From contig CAJXWZ010000002.1 in NCBI GenBank assembly GCA_913062815.1, forward strand, positions 124,001 to 188,000: a stretch of DNA of 64,000 nt, in the 5' to 3' direction. Of the stretch, positions 2,974 to 62,352 are shown one piece after another. Numbering within the stretch: the first letter of the stretch is position 1; each line of letters opens with the position of its first letter. This stretch comes from an uncultured Colwellia sp. (GTDB lineage: Bacteria > Pseudomonadota > Gammaproteobacteria > Enterobacterales > Alteromonadaceae). Both the position numbers and the translations under genes were made by a program. The notes under the pieces are model-generated. The model searched no databases, had not been told where the DNA came from, and was given only the letters and a program-made list of their open reading frames with translations.

Positions 2974-2997
2974 TTTTGGCGCCTTAAGGCGCCAAAA
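2974..2997. terminator. Bidirectional hairpin between convergent genes
   Basis: A perfect 10-bp stem (ttttggcgcc / ggcgccaaaa) with a ttaa loop lies 21 bp after the stop of the repeat protein. The sodX stop codon lies in the loop. A/T tracts on both sides fit use as a terminator in both directions. Confidence 0.75.
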
Positions 2998-3352
2998 TAG
3001 CAGAAGGTTTTAAAAAAACTTTAATCACCCGACCAAGAATTTGTTTTTTGCTAACAGGGCCTAATTTTTCAATTGAAATACTGGAAGAATTTTCACCTTT
3101 ACACCAAATCAAATGATTCTTATCAATAAAGGCGATAGTTTTAATTAATAGGCCATGTTCGGGGTGGTTGATTAAAACTGTTTCACTTGGCTTGAGTTTT
3201 TTAAATGTAAGCCAATGTGCCACTAGCACAAAGCTGTGCTGTGGAATACGGGGAAACATGCTATGTCCCTTTACTTTCCATATTTTAAAGCCGAAGAAAG
3301 TCACTAGGTTAAGACAGGATAAACAATGGCTTGTTCTGGCGGGTATGGACAT
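2984..3352 (-). CDS. sodX: Nickel-type superoxide dismutase maturation protease
   Basis: This is a small S24/S26-type signal-peptidase-like protein of up to 122 residues. It carries a Ser motif (KVKGHSMFPRIP) and a downstream Lys in GLLIKTIAFID, consistent with a Ser-Lys dyad. It directly follows sodN in the same operon. In the known NiSOD system this protease removes the SodN leader so that the nickel hook starts with His. The ATG used here (3352) overlaps sodN by 49 bp and has no clear ribosome site. A GTG at 3304 that overlaps the sodN stop (TAGTG) would give about 106 residues beginning just before the conserved domain, and may be the true, translationally coupled start. Confidence 0.85.
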   Translation of the reverse strand: MSIPARTSHCLSCLNLVTFFGFKIWKVKGHSMFPRIPQHSFVLVAHWLTFKKLKPSETVLINHPEHGLLIKTIAFIDKNHLIWCKGENSSSISIEKLGPVSKKQILGRVIKVFLKPSAILAP

Positions 3353-3804
3353 ACAGCCATATATGTTTCATAACCTTTACACTGCCAAAATATTTCAGCA
3401 AAGCGATTTACTTTATTAAGTAAATCAAGAGTAATATCTTTGTTAATGTGCTGCTTTGCACTTGAAGCAGTGAGCATTATGCTATGCACTAGCGAATGAA
3501 TTTCAGGAAATTTCTCCAATTGCGGCCTTTTAATAAAATCTCCCCAAATTACCGTGATTTCATCTTTAACTTGTTTACCATGGCTTTCTTTTTGATTCAC
3601 TAAACGAGAAAACTTTGCCTGCTCCTTTGCTGAAAAAGGCGTGTTGTCTTTAAACTCATCTAAAAGGTCTACCATGCGAATCATAGTTAATACGGCAACT
3701 TGTGCTTTAATGGGATCATAAATTTTACAGGGAATATCGCAATGGGCAGAGACAGTTGAAAAATGAAATTTTTCATCTAGCTTGTTAATAAAATTATAAA
3801 ACAT
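3304..3804 (-). CDS. sodN: Nickel superoxide dismutase
   Basis: SodN dismutates superoxide to oxygen and hydrogen peroxide with a nickel cofactor. The 166-residue precursor has a 20-residue leader followed by HCDIPCKIYDP, the nickel-hook signature (usually HCDLPCGVYDP). Mature His1, Cys2, Cys6 and Tyr9 correspond to H21, C22, C26 and Y29. The rest is a helical domain of the size expected for the family. The leader looks like a SodX-cleaved propeptide rather than a Sec signal. The gene sits fourth in a minus-strand operon that starts with pseudoazurin and ends with sodX, downstream of a Fur box. Confidence 0.95.
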   Translation of the reverse strand: MFYNFINKLDEKFHFSTVSAHCDIPCKIYDPIKAQVAVLTMIRMVDLLDEFKDNTPFSAKEQAKFSRLVNQKESHGKQVKDEITVIWGDFIKRPQLEKFPEIHSLVHSIMLTASSAKQHINKDITLDLLNKVNRFAEIFWQCKGYETYMAVCPYPPEQAIVYPVLT

Positions 3805-3817
3805 GTTACTCCCCTTT

Positions 3818-4021
3818 TTATTTTGAATTATTGGTTTTGATTTGATAGTTTTTTTTCAATAATTTTGTGTACAACAATGCAACTGCTATCAATGCTGGGG
3901 CAAGCCAAGCCAGATGAATTAAACTAGCGAGATTTGATGCATGGTCATGTCCTGCATGGGCAAAAATTGGCTGTGAAATAACTAAACTAATGCAAAATAT
4001 AATTAAAGAGAAAAGCTTCAT
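3818..4021 (-). CDS. Small His-rich membrane protein in the NiSOD operon
   Basis: This 67-residue protein has an N-terminal signal peptide (MKLFSLIIFCISLVISQPIFA) followed at once by HAGHDH, then one transmembrane helix (about residues 35-53) and a basic tail (KLLKKNYQIK). No family is recognised. The HAGHDH cluster would lie at the outer face of the inner membrane and could bind a metal such as nickel or copper. It lies 13 bp upstream of sodN and is surely co-transcribed with it. A role in nickel handling for SodN is inference from position and composition. Confidence 0.65.
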   Translation of the reverse strand: MKLFSLIIFCISLVISQPIFAHAGHDHASNLASLIHLAWLAPALIAVALLYTKLLKKNYQIKTNNSK

Positions 4022-4049
4022 AAAGACTCCGGTTTTATTTAAATGGTAG

Positions 4050-4478
4050 TTAATGGATTATCTCTTGGTTTGCTTCGAGATTATTCTTGAATTCAAGCAA
4101 TGATTGTTGGCAGCTATCACACATTGGATGGCGTTTAGAAAACATTAGAATTGGCATAAATGTGACTTTCAGCGCATTCTCGGCAATGAGCTTTGTTTCA
4201 TCACAAATATCATCGGAATGGCATATTGAAAGCACCCTGTTATGCGGTATAAGCAAGTACTGTAATGCTAAATCAGGGTTATCCTGAACTTCAAACAAGG
4301 TAGATAAATTGTGATAAGCACAGATCCATGCCATTAATAAAGGCACATTCTTAGTATTAGCCGACCACAATGTATCTAGGTGAGATGTAGCTTCTTTATA
4401 ACAATATTCAGCCTGACGCCAATTCCTTTTATGGAAAGACTCGTTACCATCGTCTAATAAATTTTGCCATTGATGCAT
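4050..4478 (-). CDS. TPR-like hypothetical protein in the NiSOD operon
   Basis: A 142-residue, apparently cytoplasmic, helical protein. The N-terminal part (DDGNESFHKRNWRQAEYCYK) has the spacing of a tetratricopeptide repeat, with a second helix pair around AYHNLSTLFEVQDNPDLAL. It contains several Cys and His residues, including HPMCDSC near the C-terminus, which could bind a metal. It lies between the pseudoazurin gene and the small His-rich gene with gaps of under 30 bp, so it is part of the same transcript. Its function is unknown; a chaperone or metal-handling role for SodN is possible but unproven. Confidence 0.6.
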   Translation of the reverse strand: MHQWQNLLDDGNESFHKRNWRQAEYCYKEATSHLDTLWSANTKNVPLLMAWICAYHNLSTLFEVQDNPDLALQYLLIPHNRVLSICHSDDICDETKLIAENALKVTFMPILMFSKRHPMCDSCQQSLLEFKNNLEANQEIIH

Positions 4479-4502
4479 GTTTCGCCCCTATATATTATTT
4501 GT

Positions 4503-4943
4503 TTACTTAACTTTTTTAAGTGCTTCATCAATAATTTCTTTATTCATTGCAACCGCGGCTTTTGCTTTGTTCCAATCTGCTAGCGCTTTAGTGCTGTCGG
4601 CATTATCTCCTACTTGAACAACACCTATCATGCCTAGTGCAAAATGTGGCAAGCATTTAACAAGCACAACACCTTCTTCTGAAAAAGTAACTCTAGTTGC
4701 TTCACCATAAGGTGTGTTAAAAGATGATTTCTCAGAAGGTACCGAGAAGGATTCAGCATTATGTGTAGCATCAGAAGGTACAAAGGTAACGCTGTCGCCT
4801 TGGGCGATTTTAATGAAATTAGGTTCAAATACCATTATCTTCCCGTCGCTGCCTTGACTTAGTAGTTTGACAGTATGATCTGCGGCATGAGCTAGGGTGG
4901 AACAAATTAACAGGCACAAAATGGTCAGCATTAATTTGGGCAT
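4503..4943 (-). CDS. Pseudoazurin-type blue copper protein
   Basis: A 146-residue periplasmic cupredoxin with a signal peptide cleaved near AHA-ADH (residue 20-21). The type 1 copper ligands fit H61 (DATHNAES), C97 and H100 (VKCLPHF) and M105 (LGMIGVVQVGD), the order and spacing of pseudoazurin. Known members pass electrons to periplasmic reductases such as nitrite reductase, but no denitrification gene is visible here. It is the first gene of the operon ending in sodN-sodX, 34 bp downstream of a Fur box, so it is probably expressed under iron limitation. A link to superoxide defence is inferred only from co-transcription. Confidence 0.88.
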   Translation of the reverse strand: MPKLMLTILCLLICSTLAHAADHTVKLLSQGSDGKIMVFEPNFIKIAQGDSVTFVPSDATHNAESFSVPSEKSSFNTPYGEATRVTFSEEGVVLVKCLPHFALGMIGVVQVGDNADSTKALADWNKAKAAVAMNKEIIDEALKKVK

Positions 4944-4971
4944 TACTATTATCTCTTAAAATTTAATGTGC

Positions 4972-4991
4972 GCTAATGGTAATCATTATCA
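4972..4991 (-). promoter_or_regulatory. Fur box upstream of the pseudoazurin-sodN operon
   Basis: The sequence tggtaatcattatca (4977-4991) matches the 7-1-7 Fur consensus TGATAATnATTATCA at 14 of 15 positions. The overlapping 19-mer at 4972-4990 matches GATAATGATAATCATTATC at 17 of 19. It sits 34 bp upstream of the pseudoazurin start, where a repressor would block transcription. Confidence 0.8.
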
Positions 4992-5046
4992 TTTAGATTA
5001 GCAAGGGTTTTGTGTAATATTAGTTACTATATAATTGGGGTAGTTT

Positions 5047-5071
5047 GACTAGGTTTTAAAAAAAACTAGTC
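5047..5071 (-). terminator. Possible terminator hairpin after the MHYT kinase gene
   Basis: gactag and ctagtc form a 6-bp stem extended by A/T pairs, about 90 bp downstream of the kinase stop on the minus strand. The loop is T-rich but no U-tract follows, so this is a weak call. Confidence 0.3.
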
Positions 5072-5162
5072 ATGAGGGCTATTGTTACAGTTGTTCTTTA
5101 AAATCATTGGTGTTTAATTGATGACTGGTTATGCCATTTATTCTGAATACCTTTGTAAAGCA

Positions 5163-7169
5163 TTATGGAAGATTAGTGCTCGATATTGGGCAATCAATTG
5201 GCAAATTAATCGCAAAAATAGTTTTATACTCAGTCGTAGGTTTTAGCAATTTTATATTACCTTTCAATTTTTGGCTTACGAGGTTATATGCGATATGAAG
5301 ACCAAGACCTATACCACCCTCACTTCTCTTTGTCGTCACAAATGGCTCAAAAACTCGGTTAGCTAATCCTAACTCTATACCACAGCCATTATCTTGAAAA
5401 AGGATAACTAATCTGGTTCCGCTTTGTTTAACGCTAATGTTAATTATCCCTTTGTCACCGTCTTCAAAAGCATGTTCTATTGAGTTACTTATAAGGCAAC
5501 TAAGGATCTGTATTAGAGCATTTTCAAAACCAAAGGCACTGATGCCTTCTTCTATATCGAGTTCAAAAGCTAAATTCTTATCTTCAAGAGCTGCCTTCCA
5601 AACGATTAATAGTTCTTCAATGGTATTTGTGGGGTAAAAAGTTTGCGCATCTTCAACATCTTGATCGACAGAGATGTACTTGAACTGTTGAATGAGTTTA
5701 GCCATTCTGTCAAGGCTCTTGCAGGCAAGCAATTCAAACTGATAGACTTTTTCTAAAGAATTCTCCAACTCTGACTTTCTAATACTGCCTGATATTACCG
5801 AGGATTGAATACCTTCAACTATCTCCATAATTGAAGAGAGCGACGTAATACCAATACCTAAAGGAGTATTGAGCTCATGGGCAACTCCAGTAACTAGGCT
5901 GCCAAGAGATGCCATTTTTTTAGCTTCAAGTAACTCTTCTTGCGTGTCTCTTAAGTTTTCTAAGGTTTCAATGGCCGTATTTTTGGCTACAACCAATTCA
6001 TTTTCTTGTGCGATTTGTTCCGTAACGTCGGTCCAAGTTTGAATGATAGTATCAGCAGATGTTCTATTTTGTCTAAGTAGCCACCATCTTTGTTTGTTAT
6101 CTAACACTTTAAAAGGTTCGGCAAGATTCTGTTTGCTACCTAAAATATCAAGCATTTGTTTTGATTGATTCTTATCGCGAAATTTGAAGTGATTTTCAGC
6201 TAACTTCTTATAGAGAGTATTCAAATTGTCATTGATTGAGATGGTGTGTCCTTGGCCAAAAGTGTGTTGGAACTTTTTATTAACCAGTAAAATTTGGTTG
6301 TTTTCATCACTTAAAATAAAGCCATCTTGCATATTATCAATTGTTTCAATAACACGCTCATGATGTGTTGACGCAAGCTGGAGCAATACACTAATTCTCT
6401 CTTTGTAAAACAATACAAGAATTAATAAGGTCATTAAGATCACAGTAAAGAGAATAAGGCTATTCGTTAAGGTTGAGTTACCTATCCCTGATACTCCAAT
6501 CGACTCATCAGGAAAGAAAAAAGTTGAAGACATGGCAAGATAATGCATGCTTGCAACCGAAAAACCATAGGTAAGTGCGCTTAAAACTAAGTGCTTATTT
6601 TGTGATATTTTTAATTTAAATTGATTGGTGTTGAGGGCAATGGTGAGAATAGCCAATCCCCATGAAGATAATATCGACAACACCAGAAGAAGTGGATCAT
6701 GCGACATATATGCTTTCATTGACATAGCTGACATGCCAATGAAGTGCATAGTAGCTATACCAACAGCAAGTAATAGTCCAGTATAAATGACTTTTGTTGC
6801 TGAAATATCATTACTACTTAAATTATTTAAGAAAAACACAGAAGCTAGAATTGCGGGCAGGATTGATATTAATGTGGTTACAGGGTCGTATAAAATAGGT
6901 ATAGGTAACGAAAATGCGAGCATAGCGGTAAAATGCATACTCCATATGCCTAAACCAAGAATAATTCCCCCAGATAATAGTAAAGGAAAGCGTGTAGACT
7001 TGTTTGTTTGTATAAACCGAATGACACTTAGTGCACAAAACCCTGCTAAAACGGCAACTAAATAAGATAAAAGCACAATAGCAGAATCATATTGACCAAC
7101 TAAGCTGGACTCTACATTAATATTTAAGATGAAATGTTTATGCTGGCTCATCGAGAAAATCCTATTCAC
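5163..7169 (-). CDS. MHYT-domain membrane sensor histidine kinase
   Basis: A 668-residue hybrid of a membrane sensor and a transmitter. The N-terminal ~250 residues form a seven-helix MHYT module with the three repeat signatures MHFTAM, MHFIGM and MHYLAM (near residues 78, 141 and 207), thought to bind a metal or sense a gas such as O2, CO or NO. A PAS-like domain follows (about 270-390), then a HisKA segment with the phospho-His in GVAHELNTPLG, and an HATPase_c domain with N box (SNSIEHAF), DNGCGIE and GGIGLGLH. No receiver domain is fused and no response regulator gene is adjacent, so the partner is unknown. A second in-frame ATG (MSQHKH) lies six codons in. It stands alone between the NiSOD operon and argE. 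Confidence 0.88.
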   Translation of the reverse strand: MNRIFSMSQHKHFILNINVESSLVGQYDSAIVLLSYLVAVLAGFCALSVIRFIQTNKSTRFPLLLSGGIILGLGIWSMHFTAMLAFSLPIPILYDPVTTLISILPAILASVFFLNNLSSNDISATKVIYTGLLLAVGIATMHFIGMSAMSMKAYMSHDPLLLVLSILSSWGLAILTIALNTNQFKLKISQNKHLVLSALTYGFSVASMHYLAMSSTFFFPDESIGVSGIGNSTLTNSLILFTVILMTLLILVLFYKERISVLLQLASTHHERVIETIDNMQDGFILSDENNQILLVNKKFQHTFGQGHTISINDNLNTLYKKLAENHFKFRDKNQSKQMLDILGSKQNLAEPFKVLDNKQRWWLLRQNRTSADTIIQTWTDVTEQIAQENELVVAKNTAIETLENLRDTQEELLEAKKMASLGSLVTGVAHELNTPLGIGITSLSSIMEIVEGIQSSVISGSIRKSELENSLEKVYQFELLACKSLDRMAKLIQQFKYISVDQDVEDAQTFYPTNTIEELLIVWKAALEDKNLAFELDIEEGISAFGFENALIQILSCLISNSIEHAFEDGDKGIINISVKQSGTRLVILFQDNGCGIELGLANRVFEPFVTTKRSEGGIGLGLHIAYNLVSQKLKGNIKLLKPTTEYKTIFAINLPIDCPISSTNLP

Positions 7170-60148: not shown

Positions 60149-62266
60149 TTACAATGACCAGCTGACTGAAGCTGCATAATTGGCTGGCGCACCGTAGTAC
60201 CCTTGAGCCCAATATAAGCTGTTAATGTATTTTTCGTCAGTGACATTGTTGGCATTGAAGCTAATGGATAGTTGTTCAGAAACTTCAATGCGCACCATTA
60301 AATCAAGCACAGTATAGGCGTCTTGTCTGGTGATGATTTCTTCGCCAGCATTAGCAAAACCTTCTGTTACCACACCTTGTACACGCGAAATATCATCTTG
60401 CCAGCGTAAGTTAGCACCAAAAGATAAATTATCTATTTGTGGCACAGTATAAGTGGCTGCCAATTTAAAAAGCGCTTTAGGTGTGTAATCTGAGACATCA
60501 TCGTCACCGTCAATATCAAAACTTGTGTAACCTATGCTTGTTTGTAAACCAGGTAATATTTCACCCGCAATATCAAACTCATATCCAGATGTTTCAATGC
60601 CTTGAACGCCAATATATCGTTGCTGCTCAGGTGGTAAGTTAGCGGTATTCGCATCTAGTTTTGCCACATTTTCTTGGCTTGTTTTAAAGTAGGTTACGGT
60701 TGCTAATAAACGATCACCTAATAAGCTAGATTTTATGCCTAGCTCTTGGCTTTCGCCGGTTATTGGTGCCAAGGTTTTATCATTAATATCAAGTTCTGTT
60801 TGCGCAACAAATGTTTCGGTATAGCCAGCATAAGCAACGGTATTGTCGGTGATATTATAAACTGCGCCTACATATGGAATAAATTCATCGACGCTGACAT
60901 CTTGTGCTACACCATATGAGGAGCCTTTCACTTGCCAATCATTCTGGCGACCACCCGTCAATACATGCAGATCATCAGTAACACTAAATCGTGCCGTGAA
61001 GTAAAGAGCATTTTGGTCACGAGTTATATCTGAGCCGGTTAGGCCGTCATTAAAGGTTGGTTTTGCTGTATTGCCATCCCACTGGTCAAATGCAGGTAAA
61101 GCAGGGAAGCCATTGCCGGTTGTGTAGTCATATAGAGAAACTTCTACCCCTTCCATTGATGATTGATTTGCGCCAACAACGAATTCGTGTGAACGGCCAA
61201 ATAATTCAAAATCACCAGATAAATACACATCAACTAAATCATGCTTATTATCATTGTCGTATTCACTGGCATAACCAAATAATCCTAATTCGGTAACTTT
61301 GTCTGGCGTGCCGTAAACATAGAATAACTCGGTATCTTCATCAGTAGTTTTATGGGAATATGTACCTCTAAGCTGCCAGTTGTTATTAAAAATGTGGCTA
61401 ATTTCAACAGCGGTATTTTCTTTTTTAACATCCCAGTTTGACCAGTCAGCAGACGTATTGGTTGATACGTCATAATCAGTTGCTGTACCGTCGGTATAAA
61501 ATAGCGGATTTGCGCCCCAGTTATTACCTTTCGCTTGGCTGTCGTTAATCGAATGGCTTAGGGATATTTGCGTATTCTCTGATAACTGGTGTGCTAAAAA
61601 TACATAAAAAACATTTTTTTCGGTTTGGTATCTATCAAGATATGAGTCTGCGTCTTGATTAACAACAACGCCGCGTATTGCTGTTGATTCCGAAAGATTC
61701 ATACTGCCATCAAGCTCTAATCGACGATTACTCCAACTACCCACAGAGCCATTAATGGTTAAACTGTTATCAGCAGTAGGGCGCTTACGGATAAAGTTAA
61801 TGGTTGCAGAAGGGTTGCCAACACCAGTCATTAAGCCATTAGCACCACGAATAATTTCAATGCGATCGTAAATTGCCGTGTCTTCATCGGCATGATTATT
61901 CCCAGAGCTTAGCGGTAAGCCAACACCGTCAATTTGAAAGTTGGTAATGTCAAAGCCACGCGCGGTGTAATAAGTTCTATCAGTTTCAATACGTTCAACG
62001 TTTACACCCGTAGCGGTATCTAACACTGCATCAATATCGGTTAGTTGATAATCATGCATTTGGCTGTCGGTAATAACAGACACTGATTGTGGAATGTCAA
62101 TGATATCTAGTGCCAATCTAGAAGCCCCACTAGCGCTATGTGCATTATACCCTTTTAAGTAACTTCCTTTTACTTCAATGACTTCTAGCTCATTATTTGC
62201 TTGTGCATGGTGAATACTTGCTAATGATATAGCTATGGCGATAGACGAAAGTTTTGTTAAATTCAT
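60149..62266 (-). CDS. TonB-dependent siderophore receptor
   Basis: An outer-membrane receptor of 705 residues. It has a signal peptide (AIAISLASIHHAQA), then a TonB-box-like ELEVIEVKG. The plug domain shows IPQSVSVITDSQMHDY, ARGFDITNFQIDG and IEIIRGANGLMTGVGNPSATINFIRKRP, typical of FhuE/FpvA-type ferric siderophore receptors. A 22-strand barrel follows, ending NYAASVSWSL. The siderophore is unknown. The ATG at 62266 puts the signal peptide at the N-terminus and the Fur box 67-81 bp upstream; a longer in-frame extension lacks signal features. Confidence 0.92.
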   Translation of the reverse strand: MNLTKLSSIAIAISLASIHHAQANNELEVIEVKGSYLKGYNAHSASGASRLALDIIDIPQSVSVITDSQMHDYQLTDIDAVLDTATGVNVERIETDRTYYTARGFDITNFQIDGVGLPLSSGNNHADEDTAIYDRIEIIRGANGLMTGVGNPSATINFIRKRPTADNSLTINGSVGSWSNRRLELDGSMNLSESTAIRGVVVNQDADSYLDRYQTEKNVFYVFLAHQLSENTQISLSHSINDSQAKGNNWGANPLFYTDGTATDYDVSTNTSADWSNWDVKKENTAVEISHIFNNNWQLRGTYSHKTTDEDTELFYVYGTPDKVTELGLFGYASEYDNDNKHDLVDVYLSGDFELFGRSHEFVVGANQSSMEGVEVSLYDYTTGNGFPALPAFDQWDGNTAKPTFNDGLTGSDITRDQNALYFTARFSVTDDLHVLTGGRQNDWQVKGSSYGVAQDVSVDEFIPYVGAVYNITDNTVAYAGYTETFVAQTELDINDKTLAPITGESQELGIKSSLLGDRLLATVTYFKTSQENVAKLDANTANLPPEQQRYIGVQGIETSGYEFDIAGEILPGLQTSIGYTSFDIDGDDDVSDYTPKALFKLAATYTVPQIDNLSFGANLRWQDDISRVQGVVTEGFANAGEEIITRQDAYTVLDLMVRIEVSEQLSISFNANNVTDEKYINSLYWAQGYYGAPANYAASVSWSL

Positions 62267-62332
62267 GCGGCATTTTCCTAGTTGCCTGTAAAAGTTGGCC
62301 GAGATATTACAATAAGCAAACGACAATGTAAA

Positions 62333-62352
62333 TGCTAATGATTATCATTAAG
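62333..62352 (-). promoter_or_regulatory. Fur box upstream of the siderophore receptor
   Basis: tgctaatgattatca (62333-62347) matches the 7-1-7 Fur consensus TGATAATnATTATCA at 14 of 15 positions. It lies 67 bp upstream of the chosen receptor start. Confidence 0.8.

Follow-up and report, generated by a model that had tools for sequence, protein, structure and literature searches.

A Fur-boxed nickel superoxide dismutase operon in an uncultured Colwellia, and related loci that carry its companion genes without the enzyme

Introduction

A 64,000-nucleotide stretch of the genome of an uncultured Colwellia sp. (assembly GCA_913062815.1, contig CAJXWZ010000002.1, positions 124,001 to 188,000; this whole stretch is called the window here) carries five genes head to tail on its minus strand: paz, tpr142, m67, sodN and sodX. 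They encode, in that order, a blue copper protein, a protein resembling tetratricopeptide repeat (TPR) proteins, a small membrane protein, a nickel superoxide dismutase (NiSOD) and its leader peptidase. We read them as an iron-sparing NiSOD operon, corresponding to the fagA-fumC-orfX-sodA operon that Fur controls in pseudomonads, and give this reading a probability of about 70%. The evidence that carries it is the linkage of the genes across relatives, the Fur box ahead of them and the gene order at related loci.

The reading can be laid out as a series of steps. With iron plentiful, Fur loaded with Fe2+ would sit on the box and repress the operon, and the cell would rely on its Fe-type superoxide dismutase (SOD), SodB. 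When iron runs short the operon would be released, as the observed box and its conservation suggest. NiSOD would then be made with a 20-residue leader which, judging by homology, SodX would cut off after a VSA motif, and the new N-terminus, His-Cys-Asp-x-Pro-Cys, would fold round nickel, as in homologous enzymes. The m67 product is most likely a membrane protein that catches nickel or hands it on with an N-terminal histidine hook of its own, and tpr142 most likely encodes a scaffold or chaperone binding a peptide or client, an OrfX-type companion of iron-independent SODs. Pseudoazurin would be an optional iron-free electron carrier, which may replace a haem cytochrome. The leader, SodX and OrfX may together form a unit able to survive the loss of the enzyme.

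An operon of this kind would join two separate stories, the maturation of NiSOD and the orfX gene, so far uncharacterised, that belongs to the classical Mn-SOD operon under Fur control. At the level of sequence, it also suggests a route by which marine bacteria short of iron could replace an iron SOD with a nickel one.

Linkage of the genes across relatives

PF09055, the SodN family, matched in 19 of 147 genomes of the same taxonomic family, and SodN with both the nickel hook and a cytosolic-type leader was found in 16 family genomes, the window's own included. These 16 and seven further named loci from Colwellia, Litorilituus and Thalassotalea make up the 23 NiSOD operons compared here. The named loci numbered 21, from which 11 were dropped as duplicates; those kept were the seven with hook-bearing SodN and three without it (L153, L160 and L168). 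A gene for m67 was present in all 23 NiSOD operons, tpr142 and sodX in 22 each, and paz in 11. A second set consists of 26 loci without hook-bearing SodN, where tpr142 was found at 25, m67 at eight and paz at none, and from five of which sodX was gone. Absence of SodN was judged by PF09055 at E 0.001 across the G-numbered genomes, and at the locus only for L153, L160 and L168. Both sets exclude L038 and L039 (an 84-amino-acid SodN-like protein, no sodX), L130 (tpr142 split) and L148 (a fragment).

An earlier sequence-only reading of the window had asked whether the 142- and 67-amino-acid genes co-occur with sodN in relatives, and the counts of 22 and 23 out of 23 show that they do. It had also joined the copper carrier to NiSOD; this holds for 11 of the 23 NiSOD operons and for none of the 26 other loci, which makes the copper carrier an occasional member of the operon. 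A literature search found no publication combining NiSOD with pseudoazurin.

Farther afield, a class-wide sample had SodN in 10 of 369 genomes, eight of them outside the family. In five of these eight sodX stands beside sodN; in the other three SodN begins with a longer, signal-peptide-like stretch, and no pair of this kind was found within 1.5 kb.

At L038 and L039 the 84-amino-acid SodN-like protein follows an OrfX-type gene and carries AKCDIPC, where Lys replaces the His of the hook, and at L038 a cupredoxin gene (PF00127) lies upstream. At L130 (5912-6609) tpr142 is split between two reading frames and lacks a Fur box, and it is likely a pseudogene.

Gene families and operon layout

The sequence-only reading had described five minus-strand genes with a Fur box upstream, and the open reading frames (ORFs) of the window, family profiles and a box scan confirmed this layout (Table 1). 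Its range, 3304-4991, left sodX outside, and the gene itself is present at 3352-2984. From their spacing we infer that the five genes form one transcript.

SodN scored 151.9 bits against PF09055 (cut-off 25) and 182.9 against TIGR02753 (cut-off 90), and its hook, of the HCDxPCxxYDP type, starts at residue 21 right after VSA. SodX scored 66.7 bits against TIGR02754 (cut-off 63.25). The Ser and Lys of its catalytic dyad are invariant across 39 aligned SodX sequences, an alignment from which some near-copies and the degenerate L125 were omitted, and the model of the L168 homologue suggests a LexA/signal-peptidase-like fold. In marine cyanobacteria, sodN likewise adjoins the leader peptidase gene, in sodN-sodX(-sodT) clusters; neither OrfX nor m67 nor a blue copper gene is known to us from those clusters, and SodX is the only NiSOD maturation companion that we know of so far.

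The paz product passes the cupredoxin cut-off (PF00127, 50 bits against 21.2) and falls just below that of the pseudoazurin equivalog (TIGR02375, 104.9 against 109.85). The name pseudoazurin in the sequence-only reading was for this reason narrowed to pseudoazurin-like, with the protein filed only as a cupredoxin. By inspection it has H, C, H and M, which we take to be the copper ligands.

Iron regulation

Counting the free centre, the Fur box fits its pattern at 14 of 15 positions, as first described, and the distance from its end to the paz ATG is 33 bp, not 34. The window's own genome (5.15 Mb) holds 20 sites with at most one mismatch, the operon box among them. At two mismatches it holds 171, against 121 for the control pattern in reverse, which means that chance accounts for the majority of the looser sites.

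Boxes were sought in the 300 bp upstream of the related operons. In the hook-bearing NiSOD operons a box of at least 12/14 was found in 14 of 23, and of at least 11/14 in 19 of 23; at the loci without hook-bearing SodN, 25 of 26 reached 12/14 and 12 of 26 had a perfect box. As a control, 250 bp upstream and 20 bp of gene were scanned for 350 other genes of the same loci, TonB-dependent receptors included, and 11 reached 12/14, one of which belongs to the L029 operon itself. At L021 the box overlaps the annotated start, and L029 has a 13/14 box ahead of its longer operon.

The own genome has one PF02777 SOD, carrying SNAATPL, which we take to be the Fe-type signature; an iron-free SOD alongside an Fe-SOD, as first proposed, agrees with this. 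PF02777 is present in 143 of the 147 family genomes. No genome has both SodN and a second PF02777 SOD, in numbers too small to speak of mutual exclusion.

Genome G065 has two NiSODs (L022 and L036) and no PF02777 match. One is of the cytosolic type, with a FagA-like gene and a TonB-dependent receptor in its neighbourhood, and the other has a signal-peptide-like start.

The Streptomyces coelicolor sodN is reported to be controlled by the Fur-family nickel regulator Nur (PMC3919588), and a Nur-type regulator might act through the same box here in place of Fur. We consider this very improbable because the own genome (94% complete) yielded two FUR-family genes, and they pass NCBIfam cut-offs, one for Fur (265.1 against 146) and one for Zur (169 against 167). 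In addition, the box matches what we take to be the gammaproteobacterial Fur consensus, and a one-mismatch site of the same kind, at window 62333-62347, immediately precedes a TonB-dependent receptor gene on the minus strand (60149-62326).

Iron control of the operon through Fur, as proposed by the sequence-only reading, is well supported by comparison: the conservation of the box, the Fur gene and the related marine bacterium Alteromonas macleodii ATCC 27126, in which NiSOD and FumC are reported to be enriched under iron limitation (PMC7190382), all point to it. The passages of that paper considered here describe no operon or companion genes, and the term Fur box is absent from its text. The Streptomyces system, with its inverse control of sodF and sodN by Nur (PMC3919588), resembles the window in using NiSOD in place of Fe-SOD under metal-responsive FUR-family control; it differs in that in the window the NiSOD operon itself appears to be the direct target, with iron as the signal and Fur as the regulator.

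tpr142 as a probable OrfX-type gene

The tpr142 product has sub-threshold Pfam matches only (TPR_2, 14.4 against 27). Two other assignments were tried and dropped: DUF2753 (PF10952), at 17.9 against a gathering score of 28.7, and an amidase-domain protein, with matches below cut-off. Its AlphaFold model has six helices at a mean predicted local distance difference test (pLDDT) score of 92.5, and comparing the model with the PDB brought up weak matches (best E 0.023), for the most part to TPR domains. All 12 of the close relatives compared share C120, C123 and the terminal H142, and H142 is kept in at least 90% of 49 sequences.

Six distant homologues (E 3e-14 to 2e-6; loci L132-L137) all adjoin a SOD, and these SODs carry NQDSPL, which we take to be the Mn-type signature. 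OrfX-range matches in genomes G111 and G045 were left out of this neighbourhood comparison. A fumC gene is present in L131 and L137. At L029, behind the Fur box, the order is a 167-amino-acid gene, a 117-amino-acid FagA-like gene, fumC, tpr142, m67, sodN and sodX. The fumC genes pass their Pfam cut-offs, and their best NCBIfam scores (TIGR00979, 524.2 and 516.1) are under the equivalog cut-off of 664.75; FagA-like proteins are so named by position and mutual likeness, and Pfam assigns them no family.

The pseudomonad fagA-fumC-orfX-sodA operon responds to iron, and PMC3377617 gives it the same gene order as L029, with sodA exchanged for m67-sodN-sodX. It shares with the window operon a Fur box and an OrfX-type gene beside an iron-independent SOD. 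The window operon differs from it in its nickel SOD, in having m67 and sodX and a leading blue copper gene, and in having no fumC or FagA-like gene.

Compared profile against profile, tpr142 matched the OrfX-type set at 98.4% (E 9.2e-15). Against eight single OrfX-type sequences its profile gave 2.4-96.5%, and seven generic TPR controls gave 0.3-79%. Since no more than four of the eight exceed every control, part of the case for homology rests on the joint profile and gene order. From gene order and the profiles of relatives, and not from the Pseudomonas aeruginosa OrfX itself, tpr142 is most likely OrfX. The same evidence suggests that OrfX may be a general companion of iron-independent SODs. 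A purely NiSOD-specific chaperone was rejected for tpr142, because the gene persists where SodN is absent and related genes adjoin Mn-SOD.

m67, a probable partner of NiSOD

The m67 product matches no Pfam or NCBIfam family above cut-off. By eye it has a signal-peptide-like start, then HAGHDH, then one hydrophobic stretch. In the alignment A21, H22, G24, H25, H27 and H36 are invariant in 16 of 16 sequences, so that the protein, if cleaved after A21, would begin HxGH(D/E)H. The gene stands directly before sodN in all 23 NiSOD operons, and outside the family a gene of 52-76 amino acids just before sodN matches the m67 profile in five of five sodX-linked loci (E 4e-16 in two, 0.02-0.1 in three). 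This linkage makes m67 a probable partner of NiSOD, and we offer it as a candidate nickel-handling gene. The sequence-only reading had supposed that both middle genes could be NiSOD accessory factors, an idea which suits m67 but not tpr142, which is not specific to NiSOD.

Nine loci with m67 matches alone (L138-L146) were rejected as chance matches to an HxGH-like start, as all nine have neither a 12/14 Fur box nor an operon partner; seven further profile matches were weaker still or partial. A parallel is found in DUF4198, DUF6702 and the anglerases, which are joined to HupE/UreJ-like permeases: in PMC12537917, an N-terminal histidine after a signal peptide is proposed as a metal catcher at the membrane, as it might be in m67. 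The likeness is one of description, and m67 differs in having 67 amino acids, HxGHxH and one hydrophobic stretch, with no permease or beta-sandwich domain.

Several points weigh against the iron-sparing operon and its OrfX comparison. Four of the 23 NiSOD operons (L022, L024, L028 and L029) have no box of at least 11/14 within 300 bp of the first family gene. Only four of the eight single OrfX-type sequences beat the best generic TPR control, the P. aeruginosa OrfX sequence lay outside the comparison, and the window itself has no fumC and no FagA-like gene. Outside the family only two of the five m67-like genes match with a significant E-value, and m67 belongs to no known family, its metal binding being only predicted. 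The persistence of tpr142 at 25 and m67 at eight of the 26 loci without hook-bearing SodN indicates that neither is purely a NiSOD factor.

These last counts bear on another explanation, in which tpr142, and m67 in part, serve iron starvation in general. NiSOD would then be one of several interchangeable passengers of an older OrfX unit under Fur control, and neither gene would have a direct role in its maturation. We give this somewhat less than even odds. It would account for tpr142 matching in 50 of the 147 family genomes at E <=0.001 (some of these are generic TPR hits) against 19 for NiSOD, for the best Fur boxes standing at loci without hook-bearing SodN, and for the OrfX-type genes beside Mn-type SODs. 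It would also suit L117, L118 and L123, where tpr142 neighbours a TonB-dependent receptor gene and the locus has no sodX. It does not fit the position of m67 directly before sodN in every NiSOD operon, nor the small m67-profile genes before sodN elsewhere, two of them significant.

Loci that lack the NiSOD body

At 12 of the 26 loci without hook-bearing SodN (L109, L111-L115, L116, L126-L128, L153 and L160), a short ORF of 34-63 amino acids opens with the SodN leader and stands before sodX. A later genus search, in which genomes G513 and G523 were searched for SodX only, added L235 and L238, and the ORF of L238 has 25 amino acids, the leader and five residues. At L168, from Colwellia echini, the SodN leader and a remnant of the hook are fused in frame to SodX in one 148-amino-acid ORF (4881-5327). 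Fragments of both SodN ends are retained at L160, and hook remnants survive in L109, L153, L160 and L168. L037 has a full-length SodN (162 amino acids) with the hook missing, and at L110 the leader is degenerate. At L119, L120 and L147 the leader ORF is absent and tpr142 and sodX lie 13 bp apart; L124, L125 and L129 have no recognisable leader ORF, and L125 has lost the catalytic serine motif of SodX. Only tpr142 is kept at L117, L118 and L121-L123.

On a tree of tpr142 and sodX with 47 rows, hook-bearing NiSOD changed state 10 times, at least nine by well-supported branches, and the state "mini" changed eight times, at least seven by well-supported branches. L022 (no tpr142 found) and L147 (a near-copy) were left out, and L037, L168 and L110 were scored "mini". 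Because the tree has no known root, the choice of loss over gain rests on the hook remnants, which argue that the NiSOD body was lost repeatedly. We regard this as a new observation: SodN-less sodX operons appear in none of the titles or abstract openings that the literature searches listed, although none of those searches was aimed at them alone.

L127 sits in genome G119, which has an intact NiSOD elsewhere. That intact operon, L033, is without sodX, and L127 holds tpr142, a short leader ORF and the sole SodX found in the genome. At L114, repeated short units in overlapping frames lie upstream of the hollowed operon (5614-6053).

Selection on the leftover genes

In the Thalassomonas group (four species, six non-independent pairs) omega, the ratio of nonsynonymous to synonymous rates, was 0.06-0.12 for tpr142 and 0.01-0.11 for sodX, which resembles intact pairs; the values for m67 were 0.09-0.34 and those of the short ORF 0.13-0.63. 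The leader-free pair L119/L120 gave 0.02 for tpr142 and 0.07 for sodX, and the pair L119/L147 had too few changes to tell (sodX omega 0.44 on 4 changes).

The 20 leader codons, pooled over six pairs, two of which may include time before the loss, had 33.5 synonymous changes over 69.8 sites against 35.5 nonsynonymous over 290.2 (Fisher 2.6e-10, approximate). Taking just the four pairs that fall inside the two genera with a shared loss gave 22 over 46.2 against 23 over 193.8 (Fisher 2.9e-7, approximate). The short-ORF tail of L112/L113 is likewise constrained (p 0.0002).

These operons might be decaying relics, in which sodN was deleted and the leader stays only to feed ribosomes to sodX by translational coupling. 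Several of the short ORFs abut or overlap sodX, hook remnants linger, the leader of L110 and the serine motif of L125 have decayed, and m67 is gone from 18 of the 26 loci and sodX from five, all of which fit such decay. The constraint on sodX, tpr142 and the leader codons runs counter to it, and L119 and L120 retain a constrained sodX with no leader ORF, so coupling fails to explain the protease there. Low omega, the leader substitution test and the invariant dyad together argue against reading the leader, the protease gene and the TPR gene of these lineages as simple debris, and we hold the relic explanation to be unlikely.

The leader-SodX-OrfX unit thus appears to outlive NiSOD, and the candidate reasons are translational coupling, a further SodX substrate, or a leader with a function of its own. 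A profile of the leader was searched against 12 genomes for a second such substrate, and its only hits below E 0.1 were the operons themselves. A functional peptide would mean that SodX frees the NiSOD leader, that an OrfX-type TPR protein or other partner uses it in iron starvation, and that NiSOD is one cargo. This idea is tentative and on balance doubtful; it would explain why several lineages cut the enzyme to the leader and as few as five residues and kept leader, SodX, OrfX and Fur box. The model of the L168 leader-SodX fusion has the leader at low confidence and is therefore uninformative on docking. Lineages that have leader, protease and OrfX without the enzyme are natural knock-outs for any second function.

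Features of the window

Table 1. Coordinates of the operon features within the window.
Feature	Position	Strand	Basis
Fur box TGATAATGATTACCA	4977..4991	-	13/14 fixed positions of TGATAATNATTATCA; kept before related operons
paz, pseudoazurin-like blue copper protein, 146 amino acids, N-terminus signal-peptide-like	4503..4943	-	PF00127
tpr142, most likely OrfX-type TPR protein, 142 amino acids, C120xxC123 and C-terminal His142	4050..4478	-	profile match, neighbours of relatives
m67, small membrane protein, presumed to begin HAGHDH when mature, single hydrophobic stretch holding the conserved His36	3818..4021	-	
sodN, nickel superoxide dismutase, 20-amino-acid leader then HCDIPCKIYDP hook	3304..3804	-	PF09055, TIGR02753
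SodN leader (20 amino acids) and H21, part retained in relatives without the enzyme body	3742..3804	-	relatives' short ORFs, substitution test
sodX, leader peptidase, overlaps sodN 3' end	2984..3352	-	TIGR02754 above cut-off

On the plus strand of the window, a 972-amino-acid ORF (34-2952), whose start lies near the window edge, has aspartate-rich DTDGDGIGNNADTDDDGDGVDD repeats and PKD/HYR domain matches.

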